Assembly (NCBI GenBank): GCA_002694885.1
Contig: NZNM01000146.1
Location: 1-35,367 of the forward strand
Source of the DNA: Opitutaceae bacterium
Lineage (GTDB): Bacteria > Verrucomicrobiota > Verrucomicrobiia > Opitutales > Opitutaceae
DNA length: 35,367 bases
Reading direction: 5' to 3'
The first letter of the stretch is position 1. Each line of letters starts with the position of its first letter. Position numbers and translations under genes: made by a program. This document shows positions 9,504 through 20,907 of the stretch, in pieces. Below the pieces are notes generated by a model that did no database searches, was not told the origin of the DNA, and worked only from the letters and a program-made list of their open reading frames with translations.

Positions 9504-9929
9504 ATGAAAAAACTGATTTTCCTGATGACTTCTGCCGCCATTGCCTCGAGCGCGATCGGCCAAAACGAAAGGCCTAATCGAGAACGCCCCGACTTCTTCG
9601 CTCTGGCAGACAAGAACGAGGATAGCTCCGTGAGCCTGAAAGAGCTCGTTGACGCCCGTATCGCTATGATGCAGCGCCGGGCTGGCGGTCAACAAAGAGA
9701 GGGCGGTCCCAATCCGGAAGAGATTAGAAAGCGCATCGAAACCGCAATGAAGGACGCTTTCAAGAAAGCGGATGCCGATGAGAGCGGCTCGCTGTCAAAA
9801 GAGGAATTCAACGCCATGCCTCAGAGAGGCGGACCCGGTGGCCGAGGTGGTCGTGGTGGTCGTGGTGGACCCGGCGGCGCCCGAGGGGGACCTGGCGGTG
9901 GTGGCCCTCGCGGGGGCGGAAACGCTTAA
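9504..9929 (+). CDS. Exported EF-hand protein with Gly/Arg-rich tail
   Basis: 141 residues. MKKLIFLMTSAAIASSAIGQ is a signal peptide ending near residue 20. There are two calcium-type EF-hand loops: one at 36-47 (Asp36, Asn38, Asp40, Ser42, Ser44, Glu47) and a textbook one at 90-101 (Asp90, Asp92, Ser94, Ser96, Ser98, Glu101). The C-terminus from about 108 is almost entirely Gly, Arg and Pro (GGRGGRGG-like). This may be a disordered, cationic, surface or nucleic-acid/polyanion contacting tail. Such EF-hand proteins are common in Planctomycetes and Verrucomicrobia, usually with unknown roles. The DNA of the tail is much richer in GC than its surroundings because of Gly/Arg codons. It is convergent with the next gene, with only 22 bases between stops and no clear terminator. 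Confidence 0.82.
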   Translation: MKKLIFLMTSAAIASSAIGQNERPNRERPDFFALADKNEDSSVSLKELVDARIAMMQRRAGGQQREGGPNPEEIRKRIETAMKDAFKKADADESGSLSKEEFNAMPQRGGPGGRGGRGGRGGPGGARGGPGGGGPRGGGNA

Positions 9930-9951: not shown

Positions 9952-12408
9952 TCAATTTAACGATGTCGCCTCTTCCTCGAGAAGGGGCGATTTCTTTGCT
10001 CCCTGTTTGCGGGCCTCTGGGGCAGCTTCCGTATCTGGCTCCTCGATCACTAGGGCCTCTACTTCCATCTCCGCCTCCAAACCAAGAACCGAATCCAGCA
10101 TTCGTTTCGCTTGCTCGTGCTCCTCATTCCAAGCGAGGGTATAGCCGAACTCGCTCTTAGCTGAAGCGTAATCCTTCTCGAAATAGTGGATGTATCCGAG
10201 TACAAAGTGGGCTTTGTAGTCTCGAGGATAATCCGCCACCCATTGCGACAAGGCTTGGAAATGCTCTTCGAACCACTGCGGATTGCTGTAAAGCTCCGCT
10301 TTGCTGAAATCCACGTCCGACCACTCCGGAACGAGGTCCATTCCTCGTATCATATCGTCGTAGGCTGACCGATAGTCGCGAATGGCCACATGAGCCTGAG
10401 CTCGAGCGAAATAGAGTATGCCGTTCTCCGGCTCGGTTTCAATGGCGTCATTGAAGGCGATAACCGATTCATAGAAACGCCCGTGAGCGAATGCCGCATA
10501 GGCCCGACTTACCGGATCCGAGTCCGTGTAAATGTCTTCCGGCTCACGCTCCTCGTAGATGTTTTCGTCATAGACCTGCGTTGGCACATTTCTGTTACGG
10601 TAGTTCCCTAAATCGAGAAAGAAAAAGAAGCCATTACGACGGTATCTCGTGTAGTAGCGCCTCGGGTACGAGTTCCATCTGCTTTCGTAGTAGAAGTGCC
10701 CGCAACCATCTCCATGCGTGTAGATACCGGAGCCGTGCACATACCAGCGAACCCCATCGTAAAGGTGGCCGCAACTAGCCGAGTGCCGGTGGGCGGGAGG
10801 AAAATCGAGCCAGACGCTTCGATGTTGGTAATGCCCGCAACCGTCAAAGTGGACATGCCGCTGCGGGTAGTTGTGCCACAAGCCTCCGTAGAAATAGTGT
10901 CCGCAACCCGGACCGTGGCGATGCGCTATGCTGAAAGACAACCAGACACCGTTGCGATAATGATGCCCGCAACCGGGACCATGGCGATGAGAGCTAGGAA
11001 AATCGTGCCACCGCCTATCGTAATAGTGATGCCTGCAGGCCGGGCCATGCTTGTGACGGCGATCCAGATCGAAATGGGCAATTCGAGCAACTCCCCTGGA
11101 GCCTCTCGCCCCATGCGATGACGCCGTCTGATGGTCCATGCGCCTATTCGGCGTCCCCACGGACTGCGTGAGCTTAGAAACCGCCCCAAATGTCTGCTCC
11201 TCTCGCATTTCTTCGGTGCGGGCTACGGTTTCCGCCTGGGCATCGCGGTAGGCGCTACGCGAGCTGGCCCTGTCCTGTCGGTAAATGCCCGAAACTTGGG
11301 AAAGATCTCGAGTTAGCGCCATCGCCGTCTGCTGTTCCACTGGAGCGGTTGGCATTCTCGAGCTTGAAAAGCGGTTTCTCGTTGAAACAAGAGGATTCCC
11401 TGAGTTCCGTCCCGTCGACGATCTGGCAATAGAGTTGGTAGTAGAAGATCTCCTTGGGGCCGATGAGAGCGATCGCGAATGCTTACTGGGAATTCGAATA
11501 TCGGGAGCACTAGTCGATCTCGTTGCAGGCCTCGCCGATCTGGTCGAGGAACTGCTTGGCGTTCGATTTCTGGAAACGCCCTCCGGACTCAGTGTAATGC
11601 CGGTCGACCGTCCACGGCTAGGCACTACGGCTTCCCTAGTAGACTGCCCGCTGGAGCGGCTCGAAACGGAGCTCGAAGAATTCCGCCTTGGGGCCGAAGA
11701 GCTTACTTTGGGCGACGGCGTCGTCGGTCGCGTTCGGGAATAGCCGCTTGGGGATTTGGTAGAAGATGAAGGCGCGTTTCCGTTGTTCGATATCGAAGGG
11801 AACAGGCTTGGCAATCTGAATGAACGCGTTCGATTTCTAGCTTGTTCGTTAACCGAGGAAGATCTCCTCGGCTGAACGCTTCTGTTGCTTCGGGTAGGAG
11901 CGGAAGGCCTCGTCGAATAGCGCCTAGGAGCGGACAGGCTTGAATTTGGAGATGGACGCGGCTGCGTTGGACGGACTGTCGTTGGACGCTGCCTAGATGA
12001 ACTCGATGTTGACGGGCGGGAAACCGATGGCCGGCCGCTCGATGAAACGCGAGGTCCTGATTGGACTCTTGAATTTGAATAAGATTTAACGGGACCTCGC
12101 GCGCCCTTGTACCGAGATCCTGATGACGAAGATGACAACCTCGATGGCGGACTAGATACGCGCGATCGAGAGGGGGCGCTGGATGAGCTCGATCGACGAG
12201 GGGCGCTGATTGTTGTCGATCGCTGCCTGGATGGCATCCTGGAAACGCTGCTTCCACTAAAGACCGATTTGGAAGAAGAAGATGAAGAAGAGCCGCTGCT
12301 GGAAGAGGATCGGCTTTGCGATTTTAAAATCTTGTACTCCAACCTGAGCCATAAAGCAAAGAACCAATGCGAATGCGCCAAACCGGCGATTCCAGAATCG
12401 GGGATCAA
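9952..12408 (-). CDS. Ser/Arg-rich protein with six His/Cys 22-residue repeats and TPR-like tail (frame broken near the start)
   Basis: 818-codon frame that I do not recognise as a characterised family. Residues 30-430 are low complexity Ser/Arg/Pro, with a recurring SAPRRxSS element near 68, 159, 238 and 317. Residues 452-584 are six tandem 22-residue units with fixed spacing H-x3-C-x-H-x6-W, which may bind metal. The C-terminal third has helical TPR-like repeats (about 632-775), including RAYAAFAHGRFYESVIAF and HFVLGYIHYFEKDYASA, and an acidic end. The frame opens at TTG 12408 without a good start. In the +1 frame, ATG 12430 begins a basic then hydrophobic segment (FGAFALVLCFMAQVG) that looks like a signal peptide and would join this frame if one base near 12326-12335 were absent. 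The protein is therefore probably exported, with the break reflecting a sequence error or recent mutation. It could still start at TTG. Confidence 0.7.
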   Translation of the reverse strand: MIPDSGIAGLAHSHWFFALWLRLEYKILKSQSRSSSSSGSSSSSSSKSVFSGSSVSRMPSRQRSTTISAPRRSSSSSAPSRSRVSSPPSRLSSSSSGSRYKGARGPVKSYSNSRVQSGPRVSSSGRPSVSRPSTSSSSRQRPTTVRPTQPRPSPNSSLSAPRRYSTRPSAPTRSNRSVQPRRSSSVNEQARNRTRSFRLPSLFPSISNNGNAPSSSTKSPSGYSRTRPTTPSPKVSSSAPRRNSSSSVSSRSSGQSTREAVVPSRGRSTGITLSPEGVSRNRTPSSSSTRSARPATRSTSAPDIRIPSKHSRSLSSAPRRSSTTNSIARSSTGRNSGNPLVSTRNRFSSSRMPTAPVEQQTAMALTRDLSQVSGIYRQDRASSRSAYRDAQAETVARTEEMREEQTFGAVSKLTQSVGTPNRRMDHQTASSHGARGSRGVARIAHFDLDRRHKHGPACRHHYYDRRWHDFPSSHRHGPGCGHHYRNGVWLSFSIAHRHGPGCGHYFYGGLWHNYPQRHVHFDGCGHYQHRSVWLDFPPAHRHSASCGHLYDGVRWYVHGSGIYTHGDGCGHFYYESRWNSYPRRYYTRYRRNGFFFFLDLGNYRNRNVPTQVYDENIYEEREPEDIYTDSDPVSRAYAAFAHGRFYESVIAFNDAIETEPENGILYFARAQAHVAIRDYRSAYDDMIRGMDLVPEWSDVDFSKAELYSNPQWFEEHFQALSQWVADYPRDYKAHFVLGYIHYFEKDYASAKSEFGYTLAWNEEHEQAKRMLDSVLGLEAEMEVEALVIEEPDTEAAPEARKQGAKKSPLLEEEATSLN
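10657..11055 (-). repeat. Six tandem 66-bp coding repeats (22-aa His/Cys/Trp units)
   Basis: Units begin at residues 452, 474, 496, 518, 540 and 563 of the encoded protein. Every unit keeps His at +2, Cys at +6, His at +8 and Trp at +15. Four of the six have His-x-His with Gly or a small residue following. The only length change is one extra residue in unit 5. The DNA copies have diverged, so this is an old protein-level repeat and not a recent satellite. Confidence 0.9.
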
Positions 12409-12430
12409 CGCTAAATCTTTGGGCTCTCAT
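12335..12430 (-). pseudogene. Out-of-frame signal-peptide segment of the Ser/Arg-rich gene
   Basis: ATG 12430 has GGAG about 10 bases upstream and opens a frame reading MRAQRFSVDPRFWNRR, then the hydrophobic core GAFALVLCFMAQVG. It stays open to a stop near 12257 but loses any protein character once it enters the Ser-codon region. Skipping one base at the TTTTAAAA run (12328-12335) fuses it to the 818-codon frame. I read it as the true N-terminus of that gene, separated by a one-base insertion. The alternative is chance. Confidence 0.5.
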
Positions 12431-12829
12431 CTTATCCACACTCCATCAACCAAGAATTGGTGGCTCGATCGGGGCGATCTTTAAAACGGCTACCTCTTGG
12501 GTAACGAGTTAAGCGCTTTTCGATCTTTTAGACGATGAAAAAACCGCGCTTATTCATTTATCAGGGGCCATTATAGATAGGCTATTAGAACTCCTTTTCG
12601 ATTTATGAGTAATTCACCCTACGCAGCTGAGAGTATCCGAATTTCCATAAGCCACGCTAATAAGATTCCCGCTCGTCGATTAAGTCTCCTGCCATGTCTA
12701 CTAGACCGGGATTTGCATTTTCTCTGTTCGAGCGCTGCGATGATGAATCCGTGCTTGCTAAAAAACGGCATTCAACCTAGCTTCTTCGCCAGATTTTCAC
12801 CTAACCCTTTAACTTACGATAGCCCGATT
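12431..12829. other. Divergent intergenic region
   Basis: 399 bp between the minus-strand Ser/Arg-rich gene and the plus-strand Cys protein. It should hold promoters for both. AT-rich stretches occur around 12535-12600, but I cannot assign a -35/-10 pair with confidence. An open frame starting at 12605 runs in phase into the downstream gene. Its first 75 codons lack protein character and are treated as upstream sequence. Confidence 0.55.
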
Positions 12830-13147
12830 ATGAAAAAACTAATGATATTAATTGCGAGCCTCGCGCTCACGCTGCCTTTGATGGCCGGCGAAAAGAAGAC
12901 AGTCACCCTTGAAGGTACAGGAATGTGCGCCAAGTGCTCTCTAAGCAAGACCGATTCCTGCACCAACGCCTTGCAAGTAAAAGGTAAGGACGGGAAGGTC
13001 TTGACCTATCTATTCACCGAAAACATGGCCCACGGAAAGTACTTCTGCCAAGGCAAGACCGAAAACCTGCTCGTCACCGGAGTGGTCAAAAAAGAGGACG
13101 GCAAACTCATGATCGTCCCCTCTGCCGTTAAGGAAAAAGAAAGCTGA
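12830..13147 (+). CDS. Small exported Cys-containing protein (DUF6370-like)
   Basis: 105 residues. MKKLMILIASLALTLPLMAG is a signal peptide. The mature part has a CAKC motif (Cys33, Cys36) followed by Cys44 and Cys73, with His68 between. The remainder alternates short strands and turns, as in a small beta-rich domain (LEGTGMCAKC, LTYLFTEN, LLVTGVV). I recall similar small periplasmic proteins under DUF6370, but this is from memory. The spacing suggests a metal site or two disulphides, and the overall look is of a copper- or heavy-metal-associated periplasmic protein without a recognised enzyme activity. The start is ATG 12830, which gives the signal peptide. A strong terminator follows 30 bases after the stop. 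It appears monocistronic. Confidence 0.75.
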   Translation: MKKLMILIASLALTLPLMAGEKKTVTLEGTGMCAKCSLSKTDSCTNALQVKGKDGKVLTYLFTENMAHGKYFCQGKTENLLVTGVVKKEDGKLMIVPSAVKEKES

Positions 13148-16390: not shown

Positions 16391-19300
16391 CTAGTTGCTA
16401 GCAACCGGATCCGCTTCCGCTCGCTCGGGAGTTTTCTCCGCATTGGTCTGCCATCTCCAATAGGCGCGAAAAAGACGCTTCAAGTCATCAAGTATCAGCG
16501 TATTAACCGGTACAAGAATCAGTGTGATCACGGTAGCGAAGACCACGCCCCAGCCCAGAGATATGGCCATAGGAATCATGAACTTGGACCCCCGGCTCTG
16601 TTCGAACATCAAAGGAAGCAAACCCGCAAATGTAGTCATCGATGTTAGCAGGATGGGGCGGAACCGCCGAACGCCTGCCGCCCTAACCGCCTCGCCCAGC
16701 TTTACGCCTTCTTTCACTCTGGCTGAGATGAAGTGCACCATGATAAGACTATCATTAACTACCACTCCGGAAAGAGCCAAGAATCCTAATTGCGACATGA
16801 TATTCACCGTTACTCCATCGTCCCAAATTGCTCCAAGTATCCAATCCATGATCACATGTCCTAGGATAGCTCCAACAATCCCAAACGGAATTACGGCCAT
16901 GACGACGAACGGCTTGACGTAGCTTTTGAATGGAATCGCCAGCAACACATAAACACCTAGGACGACGAGTATTGTATTGAAACGAATATTACGAGCGTCT
17001 TCCTCTTGTTGCCTAGCGTTACCAGACTTGACGTAGTTCATTCCCGTATACTGATCGACTAATCCAGGAAGAAAGTCGCGCTCTAGCTCCATAACAATGG
17101 AATCCACATCAATCTCGTCGGACTCCGCTTCGGCCGATACTGTCAATTGCCGCATACGATCGACTCGATAGATAGCTGGTAAACTCTTGCCTGGCTTGAT
17201 TTCAGCGACCGTGTCGAAGGGCACTTCCGTCCCGTTGGGCGTCCGGATCATCATCGAGTCCAAGGTGGCCAACGACTTTCTCTGGGCCTCGGGATAGCGA
17301 ACCATAACACGTACATCGTTGCGCCCCCTCTGTATGCGCTGGGCCTCCGTTCCGAAGAATGCTTGACGCACCTGGCGTGCCAGATTGTTAGCGGTGATCC
17401 CTAGATACTCCGCTTGCGGCTTGAGCTGCAACTCGAATTCCGCCTTAGCGCTCTCAAAGGAATCGGTAATCTCGGCCAAGCCTTGATACTCAGTCAGCTT
17501 GTCTTGCAGCTGGCTAGAGGCAGCTATCAGGTCATCGAAACTGGGACTCGTAAATCTCAGATAAACCCCTGATCCGCCACCACGGAGGAAGCCCAGCGAC
17601 AGCCGCTCGGCATCGGGCACAGGGCCAATCGCTTGCCTAAGATAAGCTGTCGCCTCGGAACTGCCGTAATTGAAACCGTGCACTTCGAAGGGAGTGAGCT
17701 CGATAACCACCTCGCCTAGCTCCGCCACCCCGACTGCCCGTGTTCCATAACTTCGATACATCGGTTGACCACCCGCGGTGGCGAAAACATTGCGGATCAT
17801 CTCAGTGCCGAACTCTTCATTGACCTTTTCCTTGTAGTCCAGGGCAATTTTCTCCATCCGGCGAATATGGGAATCCGTCGTCTCAAACGGCGTTCCCGCG
17901 GGCATTTGCAGGCGTATGGTGACTTGGTCGCTCGGTATTCTCGGATAGAAACTGGATTGTATCCGATTAGTTTCTACGAGACTCCAAACGATCGCCAAAC
18001 CTCCTACGAAAACTGAGAACGTTACGTACCGATTTCTCAAGCAAACGTCTAGTACGGGACGGTAGAACCGTTCGATCCCTCGCTCTAGTCCGGTAGCTAT
18101 TCTTCGCTGAATTCGGGTGATGAAATTGGTTTTGGAGTCGTTTCCGCCCGTTGCCCCTATGTTTTTACAGTGCTTGAGGTGAGCCGGAAGTATCAACTTG
18201 GATTCTATCAACGAGAACAGAAGCACAGGGATCACCACGTAGGAAATCTGCTTCAGATTGTTGCCCATGAATCCGGTCATGGCCTGAAGCGGGTAGAAGG
18301 CGACAATCGTGGTAAGCACGCCAAACACGACCGGAATAGCGACTTCCTGTGTACCTTTCACCGAGGCATCTAGCGGCGTTTCCCCATCTTGCATGCGGCG
18401 AAAAACGTTTTCGCCCGTGATGATGGCGTCGTCGACCACAATACCCAAAACGAGAATGAATGCGAACAATGTGCTCAGGTTGAGGGAAACGTTCCACAGG
18501 TAGAACATAATGAAGGCCCCTGAGAAAGCGATGGGGATGCCTAAGCTGACCCAAAAGGCTAGCGAGGGCCGCAAGAAAAGCGACAGCACGATTAGCACGA
18601 GGATGAAGCCGGTAATTGCGCTTCCCGCTAGCGTCGACAGCCGCTGCTTCACCCGCTCGGAGTCATCACTCCAATAGCTCAATAGAACGCCCTCTGGCAA
18701 CGTGGGCTGTTTCGCTTCGAGGTAGGCCTTAACCTCATTGGCCAAGACGATTAGATTCTGGTCGCCCGAGCGATAAACGTCCAGAACAACGCATCGCCGT
18801 CCATTGTAGTTGGAAATCAATGGCGTTTCATCGAAACCATCATTAACCTTGGCAACATCCTCCAGTGTCAGCCGGGTCCCATCCTCCCGAGTATAAACCA
18901 CGATCTTTGAGAAATCTTCGTAGTTATATGCTTGGTTAGAGGTTCTTAAAAGAATATCGCCCGCGTTGGTCCTAACGCTGCCCGCCGATAGATTGACCGA
19001 AGAATTTCTCACCGCTTGAACAATCTGATCGAAAGTAAGTCCATGCCGTTTTAGCGTTTCCTCCGAAACTTCGATCCCGATTTCGTAGGGACGCGCCACT
19101 TTCATGGATACGAGAGATATATTTGGAAGCGCTGTGAGGTCGTCGCGGACAATTTCCCCCAGCTCCATGAGATCCTTTTCTCCCAGATTTCCGGAAATGA
19201 CCACCGCCATAAGACGCTCCGTAAAGGTGTCCTGGCTCACGCGGGGCCGTTCCGCTTCAACAGGGAACGTGTTGATCGAGTCAACACGGTCCTTCACCTG

Positions 19301-19624
19301 ATCAAGGATCACATTCATGTCGTAACCCTCTTCGATCTCCAAAGTCACGCGCCCAGAGCCTTCCGAGGCTCGGCTCTGCATTTCCTTGATCCCGGCTACG
19401 TCGAAGAGGGCCTCTTCCAAGCGCATGACGATCGACTCTTCAACTTCGGCGGGCGTGGACCCGCGGTAAGTAACACCCACTTCGATCTCCCGCTGCAGGT
19501 AGTCAGGCCATTCCCTGAGAACCACTTTGTTCAAACCTAGGTATCCGCCCGTCAACACGATGGCAAACATGAGGATATTCGCCGCTACACCGTTGTTGGT
19601 AAACCACTCTATAATCCTATGCAT
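16391..19624 (-). CDS. RND-family efflux pump, inner-membrane permease
   Basis: 1077 residues, the usual length for an AcrB-like RND transporter. A first membrane helix (about 12-32) is followed by a large periplasmic loop. Helix 4 contains LGIVVDDAIITGENV with the proton-relay pair Asp398-Asp399. A second periplasmic loop precedes helix 10, GVVVNDSLIM, with Asn957-Asp958 where AcrB has its relay Lys. This ND version is common in a large branch of RND pumps. The C-terminal membrane bundle includes RRFRPILLTSMTTFAGLLPLMF. It exports drugs, lipids or other toxic compounds using proton flow, together with the adaptor encoded 20 bases upstream. No outer-membrane channel gene is adjacent. ATG 19624 gives the standard N-terminus, MHRIIEWFTNNGVAANILM. 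Confidence 0.93.
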   Translation of the reverse strand: MHRIIEWFTNNGVAANILMFAIVLTGGYLGLNKVVLREWPDYLQREIEVGVTYRGSTPAEVEESIVMRLEEALFDVAGIKEMQSRASEGSGRVTLEIEEGYDMNVILDQVKDRVDSINTFPVEAERPRVSQDTFTERLMAVVISGNLGEKDLMELGEIVRDDLTALPNISLVSMKVARPYEIGIEVSEETLKRHGLTFDQIVQAVRNSSVNLSAGSVRTNAGDILLRTSNQAYNYEDFSKIVVYTREDGTRLTLEDVAKVNDGFDETPLISNYNGRRCVVLDVYRSGDQNLIVLANEVKAYLEAKQPTLPEGVLLSYWSDDSERVKQRLSTLAGSAITGFILVLIVLSLFLRPSLAFWVSLGIPIAFSGAFIMFYLWNVSLNLSTLFAFILVLGIVVDDAIITGENVFRRMQDGETPLDASVKGTQEVAIPVVFGVLTTIVAFYPLQAMTGFMGNNLKQISYVVIPVLLFSLIESKLILPAHLKHCKNIGATGGNDSKTNFITRIQRRIATGLERGIERFYRPVLDVCLRNRYVTFSVFVGGLAIVWSLVETNRIQSSFYPRIPSDQVTIRLQMPAGTPFETTDSHIRRMEKIALDYKEKVNEEFGTEMIRNVFATAGGQPMYRSYGTRAVGVAELGEVVIELTPFEVHGFNYGSSEATAYLRQAIGPVPDAERLSLGFLRGGGSGVYLRFTSPSFDDLIAASSQLQDKLTEYQGLAEITDSFESAKAEFELQLKPQAEYLGITANNLARQVRQAFFGTEAQRIQRGRNDVRVMVRYPEAQRKSLATLDSMMIRTPNGTEVPFDTVAEIKPGKSLPAIYRVDRMRQLTVSAEAESDEIDVDSIVMELERDFLPGLVDQYTGMNYVKSGNARQQEEDARNIRFNTILVVLGVYVLLAIPFKSYVKPFVVMAVIPFGIVGAILGHVIMDWILGAIWDDGVTVNIMSQLGFLALSGVVVNDSLIMVHFISARVKEGVKLGEAVRAAGVRRFRPILLTSMTTFAGLLPLMFEQSRGSKFMIPMAISLGWGVVFATVITLILVPVNTLILDDLKRLFRAYWRWQTNAEKTPERAEADPVASN

Positions 19625-19644
19625 CGCGATCGGGCTCCTATCTA

Positions 19645-20907
19645 TTATCGAACAACCTGCTTGGCGTCAGCGCCTTGATGCGCAGATTTGTTTGCTACAT
19701 CAATTCCGTCTTCGGACACAACCGCGACCTTCATCCCTTCCGAAGGAAAGCTCAGATGGGTCAGACAAACGCGGTCTCCCGGGTTCAGTCCGCTGCTTAC
19801 GACCAAACTCTCCTCGTCGCTCCACTCAATCTCAATAGATTTCCGCCTCAAGATTCCGTCATCTTCAATGACAACCACGTACTCATTTTTCCGGTACAAC
19901 TCTCTCGGAATGACAATTACATCCTCCAAAACTTCTCCTTCAATCTGAGCCTGCACGAAAGAACCTACCTTTAACGGCGGCCTGCCATCACCTTGCTTCC
20001 GGTAGGGGTCATCCACTTGAGCAACGAAAAACAATTGTCGCGACTGAACGTCGAAAGCCCCTTCCGCACGCACGATACGCCCCGCCCAATGCAGAGTTTC
20101 GTTACCAATCGTCGTGGTCAGATTCACTGTGGGCATTGGCAGTACGGGATTCGAGTCGTTGCGATAAAGTTCAGGAACATTGATGTATCCAATTTCCCGT
20201 TCGCTAAGTGGTAAACGTATCTCCGCGTAGTCGACCGCGTAGATTTCGGCCAATACGCTTCCCGAATTAACGAACTGTCCTATGTCGACCCGCTTTTCCA
20301 ATATTCGACCGGCGTAGGGAGCCGTGATGGTAGTGCGTTCCAAGTTCAGGCTAGCATTCTCCACTCTAGCTTCGGCCGAAGCGACATCCGCCTTGGCTTG
20401 AGCCAACTGAGGCTTGCGACTTACGAGTTCTGGCGGTTCGACTCCCGGATTGAGACGTTCCCAATCCGTCCGGGCTTGGGCCGCGTTCGCTTCTTCCTCG
20501 GCCAAGGCCAATCGGGCTCGAGCCAGCGTCGCTTCAGCAGAAAGAACCGCGGTCTCATAGTCCCGCTTGTCAATCTCCAGCAAGGTTTCCCCTTGTTCAA
20601 AAAATCCGCCGACCCGAAACGCAGGAGCCACGTTTACCACTTTCCCTCTAACTTCGGAGACGAGCGAGCTCTCAGTCCGGGCTTGGACCGTTCCTTGAGA
20701 ATGAAGCCAAACTTGGTAGTCGATCGGCTCCAGAGTGTAAACACTCACTTCTGGTAAGGTTTCCTTCTGGGGGAATTTCCGGGGCGCCGGCTCCGACCAA
20801 AAAATCCAGTAGCATATCCCAGCGGACACGGCTAGGACGACTAAGGGAGGAAGCATGCGTAGGATGAACATGGTACCGTTAACAAAGTGGTGATTATAGA
20901 TATACAT
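19645..20907 (-). CDS. RND efflux periplasmic adaptor (HlyD/MFP family)
   Basis: Up to 420 residues. An N-terminal membrane anchor (about 15-32, LPPLVVLAVSAGICYWIF) is followed by a barrel-sandwich half (VSEVRGKVVNVAPAFRVGGFFEQGETLLEIDKRDYE, split over about 83-118), an alpha-helical hairpin rich in Ala, Glu and Arg (about 118-190), and the returning half TTITAPYAGRILEKRVDIGQ (about 192-211). Beta-barrel and membrane-proximal domains follow. It bridges the RND pump and an outer-membrane channel. The start is uncertain between ATG 20907 and ATG 20871, and neither has a good Shine-Dalgarno. The pump gene follows after 20 bases. Upstream, 128 bases separate it from the divergent YkvA-like gene. 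Confidence 0.92.
   Translation of the reverse strand: MYIYNHHFVNGTMFILRMLPPLVVLAVSAGICYWIFWSEPAPRKFPQKETLPEVSVYTLEPIDYQVWLHSQGTVQARTESSLVSEVRGKVVNVAPAFRVGGFFEQGETLLEIDKRDYETAVLSAEATLARARLALAEEEANAAQARTDWERLNPGVEPPELVSRKPQLAQAKADVASAEARVENASLNLERTTITAPYAGRILEKRVDIGQFVNSGSVLAEIYAVDYAEIRLPLSEREIGYINVPELYRNDSNPVLPMPTVNLTTTIGNETLHWAGRIVRAEGAFDVQSRQLFFVAQVDDPYRKQGDGRPPLKVGSFVQAQIEGEVLEDVIVIPRELYRKNEYVVVIEDDGILRRKSIEIEWSDEESLVVSSGLNPGDRVCLTHLSFPSEGMKVAVVSEDGIDVANKSAHQGADAKQVVR

Follow-up and report, generated by a model that had tools for sequence, protein, structure and literature searches.

What might a protein do with a run of short repeats that each carry His, Cys, and Trp at fixed places? The question is raised by one gene in a 35,367-nucleotide stretch of DNA from an Opitutaceae bacterium, the whole of which was analyzed and is here called the window. 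The minus-strand frame of this gene, 9952-12408, translates into 818 residues, and six units lie within 10657-11055 at spacings of 22, 22, 22, 22, and 23 residues. Here 'array' refers to these units together, and the unit motif is H-x-H-x3-C-x-H-x6-W.

A preliminary description had reported six phased units at 10657-11055 with a single inserted residue and with H+2, C+6, H+8, and W+15 in every unit, and translation bears this out to the base, as the four residues are present in 6/6 units. Its count of three potential metal ligands per unit overlooked a His at +0, which is present in five of the six units (Tyr in unit 6) and constitutes a fourth candidate ligand.

All units are read from the minus strand. 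Unit 1 (10990..11055) is HKHGPACRHHYYDRRWHDFPSS and unit 2 (10924..10989) is HRHGPGCGHHYRNGVWLSFSIA. Unit 3 (10858..10923) is nearest to unit 4 of seven-unit orthologues, and units 4 (10792..10857), 5 (10723..10791, the one with 23 residues), and 6 (10657..10722, with Tyr at the first ligand position) correspond to orthologous units 5, 6, and 7, respectively, so that the window array is without orthologous unit 3. When the 155-residue region was shuffled 20,000 times, the core H-x3-C-x-H-x6-W occurred once in 109 shuffles and twice in none, against six times in the real sequence.

The array and its protein

The domain order is a Ser/Arg-rich linker of ~400 residues, the array, and a TPR-type domain. 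The low-complexity linker (11089..12318, minus strand) was delimited by translation and by linker composition in homologues, and the helical domain behind the array (10051..10542, minus strand) by Pfam, PDB profile, AlphaFold, and Foldseek.

No Pfam TPR match of the C-terminal domain reaches its curated score; TPR_2 (E 7.3e-05) scores 23 bits versus a gathering score of 27, and TPR_16 scores 20.4 bits versus 32.7. The family profile matches TPR chains among PDB sequences (best E 6e-16), AlphaFold models the domain as helices with mostly good confidence, and Foldseek retrieves TPR structures (best E 7.2e-05 for a designed TPR, probability 1.00). By these predictions, the domain with its paired antiparallel helices is a TPR fold. 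It resembles that of TPR proteins, to which the window protein adds the array and the linker.

A signal-peptide-like stretch at 12332..12430 (minus strand) is in another frame than the array, within 12257-12439, while the long frame opens at 12408. In the homologues, judged by eye, the N-terminus is signal-like and in frame with the array, except that L045 is cut by the contig end. The frame break in the window copy is either a real break or an assembly error, and the window protein and its homologues are probably exported.

The array itself was compared with several libraries. With E 1 as the limit, neither Pfam nor NCBIfam has a family that matches the window array, and PHROGs gives nothing for the window array or L031 and a match at E 1.1 for L036. 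Across 13 arrays, the strongest Pfam match was GFP (E 0.0076, 3 members), which was taken as chance. PDB sequences yield no convincing match of the array profile and none with a two-unit profile; a mannose-binding protein at E 0.27 was likewise attributed to chance. No relative was retrieved from phages or viral contigs, nor from plasmids, whose single match (E 0.8) was discounted in the same way. The titles and abstract openings of open-licence literature revealed no work on such a repeat. The earlier statement that this is not a described domain therefore holds for the Pfam, NCBIfam, PHROGs, and PDB-sequence libraries. Judged by sequence, the array is a tandem repeat of putative metal-binding type with its own motif, uncatalogued in the libraries searched.

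A string of sites for haem or a redox cofactor was also considered, as each unit offers His and Cys of the axial-ligand type plus Trp. However, the 818-residue frame has six Cys, all inside the array and all in C-x-H, with CxxCH absent from the window protein, and no cytochrome family in Pfam or NCBIfam was matched. We regard such a string as most improbable.

Conservation and selection in the family

The family sample of 200 genomes was searched with the array and, separately, with the TPR part. The array search matches 17/200 genomes, which are the own genome, 15 orthologues, and G084, and the TPR-part search also matches 17/200, which are the own genome, the same 15 orthologues, and G101. 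G084 (array match E 0.0024) was dropped, having neither the motif in its locus (L017) nor a TPR match. G101 (L106, G101:C20) holds a remnant of an array gene with internal stops; one stretch resembles the beginning of the L032 frame (E 6e-4) and directly adjoins another that resembles the last 69 residues of L032, and the linker and the array are gone.

Genome contigs were scanned as well. A first scan with window-specific peptides detected no relative. A second scan with patterns located in the TPR part returned 12 loci, among them three Pelagicoccus records, Verrucomicrobiae bacterium DG1235, and Opitutaceae MAGs.

Counted by C-x-H...W, seven units are present in 11/15 orthologues. HxHx3CxH is intact in all seven units of 10 of these 11, and L031 has one unit with Tyr as the second His. 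L037 has six units. The ligand set conserved per unit in the orthologues is absent from L043, L044, and L045; Cys-bearing units number one in L043 and none in L044 and L045, and by eye six units of these three orthologues have degenerated, with Cys gone in 6/6 and Trp kept in 5/6. A midpoint-rooted tree of the TPR domain has seven-unit members in both of its well-supported halves, so seven is the likeliest ancestral number. Same-position units of different genera show an identity of 0.45 versus 0.26 at non-ligand columns. On this comparison, the array is old and has been preserved unit by unit.

Column conservation was examined in 69 units from 10 proteins, which are the window and 9 of the 12 loci (L053, L055, and L057, with degenerate arrays, were omitted); each of the nine orthologues yielded its full seven units. 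The most constant columns are H1 (68), H3 (67), C7 (69), G8 (66), H9 (69), and W16 (69), while neighboring columns vary. The columns of Cys, the CxH His, and Trp are favored by the search because the units were located via C-x-H and W.

Codons were compared among the 11 seven-unit orthologues, leaving out the window, L037, and L043-L045, with 385 comparisons per column whose pairs are not independent. Nonsynonymous differences were 0 at H1, 10 at H3 (all from the one L031 unit), and 0 at each of C7, H9, and W16, as opposed to 18-313 at the remaining columns. Synonymous differences were 182, 191, 118, 174, and 0, respectively, Trp having a single codon. Differences among the His and Cys codons are frequent yet nearly all synonymous, which points to selection on the side chains and not to DNA-level repetition. 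As far as codon comparison goes, these 11 orthologues are subject to strong purifying selection at the ligand columns.

This selection, together with the orthology of units by position, speaks against the idea that the array has no lasting use and is being lost. The window, L037, L043, L044, and L045 do have fewer units, G101 is reduced to its remnant, and the signal-like start of the window copy is out of frame. As a general account, loss nevertheless has a low probability; it is largely refuted for the seven-unit lineages and possible for single lineages such as that of the window.

The preliminary description had also proposed a Cys-linked surface rod, in which the Cys of each unit would pair with that of a neighboring unit. 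One Cys per unit at a fixed spacing would suit such an extracellular rod, as would the signal-like N-termini of the homologues. Yet disulfides would not require the three His that are conserved alongside the Cys. Moreover, the whole frames of L041 and L042 each contain seven Cys, all in the array, and this odd number cannot all pair within one chain. The rod is therefore disfavored, and we assign it little probability.

Metal binding as the preferred reading

Structure prediction says little about the array with confidence. When it was modeled by AlphaFold with the TPR domain, array blocks had mean pLDDT of 27-47, and a three-unit model, for which segments of one protein served as additional alignment rows, had a mean of 47. 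Hairpin strands, also of low confidence, are nonetheless found in 6/6 units of the array model and 3/3 of the three-unit model.

These recurring strands could also belong to an array that has no metal: its aromatic beta-hairpins would bind a polymer (for instance peptidoglycan or an exopolysaccharide), much as choline-binding or WG-type repeats do, and His and Cys would make structural contacts. That Trp outlasts Cys in the degenerate L043-L045 would fit this, and the scaffold may accordingly stand without metal. The setting in genus g20 is also of an envelope type, as the array gene directly follows DUF58-like and transglutaminase-core genes in 4/7 loci and is separated from them by one gene in a fifth. 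A MoxR-type ATPase gene is present in 4/7 loci of this genus (L037, L038, L039, and L042). The family scans behind these neighbors covered one or two loci and were extended by BLAST clusters, and the DUF58-like gene is below the cut-off (E 0.0014 for L036).

However, the three His and the Cys are as strictly conserved as Trp, which polymer binding alone does not require. Choline-binding, WG, and WXXGXW proteins have short repeats with Trp, Gly, and Tyr, as the array does, but the His/Cys tetrad is found only in the array, and none of these Pfam families matches any of the 13 arrays up to E 10. Polymer binding is thus an unlikely account, although less so than the rod.

We consider instead that the array strings small metal-binding beads along a secreted protein, ahead of its TPR-type domain, and give this reading, whose metal binding is inferred from sequence, a probability of roughly 0.6. 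The HxH and CxH pairs, separated by a three-residue turn that is often GPG, would offer three His and one Cys per unit to one transition-metal ion. By ligand type, zinc or copper is presumably the likeliest metal. One metal per unit held in this way is suggested by the conserved ligands together with the genomic context described below. The Y-x-x-G-x-W stretch would form a beta-hairpin that packs on the metal site, which is suggested by the recurrence of the hairpin strands. On an exported protein, the Ser/Arg-rich linker would be long and flexible, the TPR-type domain could dock to a partner, and the array would hold or buffer metal in the envelope or outside.

The same motif was sought outside the family, using array profile A2, which was built from family members only. 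In a phylum sample of 387 genomes, two places are matched at E<=0.001. First, G710 (L068/L070, E 2.9e-6) encodes a small lipoprotein-like protein in which two units, HIHTTSCGHYHHHNKW and HTHAFGCGHRFVSGIW, accompany a lipobox-like LLVSSC. The same strand carries, upstream of it, an ECF-type factor with sigma-70 regions 2/4 (2.2e-13), a weak zf-HC2 anti-sigma candidate below the cut-off, an LTXXQ protein above its cut-off (2e-07; its Metal_resist match, 2.6e-06, falls just short), and a second LTXXQ-like protein that does not reach the cut-off (0.0011). Several hundred bases separate the gene from its neighbors. In the class of G710, the array profile matches 1/197 genomes, with no second case, and the two-unit profile matches 4/197 at E<=0.01, three of them weakly. 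Incidentally, a His/Lys/Arg-rich, signal-like protein adjoins the two-unit lipoprotein (L070:5472-5771) and has no Pfam match up to E 1.

Second, G553 (L069/L107, E 4.3e-4) has five 23-residue HxHGPGCxH copies in the N-terminus of an RND adaptor (L107:2058-3584). The adaptor matches RND_mfp (2.6e-20) and CzcB/NccB (8.8e-20), both below their cut-offs, and HlyD_D23 above its own; it adjoins a pump that fits CusA/CzcA best (2.3e-190, 634.8 bits versus a cut-off of 701.45). The G553 copies have no Trp, and the two-unit profile does not recover them at E<=0.01. From their sequence they may be a convergent His-rich tail, but even so the locus shows the company that the HxHx3CxH motif keeps.

Other matches were weaker. 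In an order sample of 273 genomes, the sole other match outside the family at E<=0.001, G292/L062 (2.7e-4), runs through two stops and is in no known metal context. Weak outside matches with stops in frame, L062, L064, L065, L066, L072, L080, L081, and L082, were set aside, and around L081 and L082 (L109 and L108, respectively) no ORF has the motif. L073, L074, and L079 are weak matches with E 0.004-0.009. Among 254 non-overlapping ORFs (99,958 residues) in 21 loci around matches, 16 contain HxHx3CxH; 14 are family members and two are the outside proteins of G710 and G553.

The proposal of a metal-storing or metal-sensing module in the preliminary description has gained indirect support as regards metal, from purifying selection on the ligand columns and from two outside matches in metal-type loci; the metal could serve storage, sensing, or structure. 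Against it, metal families are absent from the scanned neighbors, a subset, of the family's array genes. His-rich profiles are also drawn to metal loci in any case, which counts against the argument from context.

Known metal proteins share some of these traits. The CzcB/CusB-like adaptor of G553 resembles the array in its tandem HxHx3CxH at a 23-residue period and its signal-like N-terminus, but differs in lacking Trp and Y-x-x-G-x-W, in its downstream domain, and in its weak profile match (4.3e-4). LTXXQ/Metal_resist envelope proteins include ZraP, CnrX, and Spy and have a helical fold. The G710 locus, with its two-unit version of the repeat, contains one gene of this kind plus a weaker candidate, but no LTXXQ/Metal_resist profile matches the repeat. 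CusF is a periplasmic Cu(I)/Ag(I) chaperone in which Trp caps the metal; it folds as one small barrel, has Met/His ligands, and lacks a tandem array. CusF and the array both have metal-ligand residues, putative ones in the array, and an invariant Trp, in a protein that is exported or, for the array, probably so, but only the array is made of tandem repeats.

A more specific form of the metal-binding reading is conceivable, though doubtful. Each 22-residue unit would be an autonomous mini-fold around one metal, with HxHx3CxH as the site and the Trp hairpin as its lid; six or seven such beads would sit on an exported TPR protein, and the two-unit lipoprotein would belong to a metal-stress regulon in another class of the phylum. 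If so, few tandem metal modules would be smaller than this unit. If the metal-binding reading is right, an uncatalogued and easily recognized metal-binding repeat would be added to the bacterial envelope, in Pelagicoccus and relatives, and its short bead, whose ligand set is defined, would lend itself to study or design in isolation; tandem HxHx3CxH would also suggest metal handling in unannotated exported proteins.

Neighbors of the array gene

Neighbors of the array gene differ between genera. In genus g1, an oxidoreductase of the GFO/IDH/MocA type precedes it in 7/8 loci, the window being the exception. The window also contains an RND pump with its adaptor (16391-20907, minus strand; pump 16391-19624), and the cluster of the pump is present in 4 of the 17 loci compared. 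This pump was rejected as a metal pump because multidrug-type models fit better (best 2.3e-137), with CusA/CzcA in fourth place (8.3e-81).

The convergent neighbor on the plus strand (9504-9929) is an EF-hand protein with a Gly/Arg-rich tail, and its BLAST cluster is found in 6/17 loci. Lanmodulin is among its weak NCBIfam matches (E 4.5e-5, 23.5 bits versus 135). On the other side, 12605-13147 (plus strand) encodes a small protein with several Cys near DUF6370 (E 5.9e-5, 23.5 bits versus 25), with its cluster in 7/17 loci; the called start may be too early. Two genus-g20 loci, L040 and L041, have another cluster adjoining the array gene, represented by a 1770-residue protein (L040:1567-6879, minus strand) that has no Pfam match up to E 0.001.
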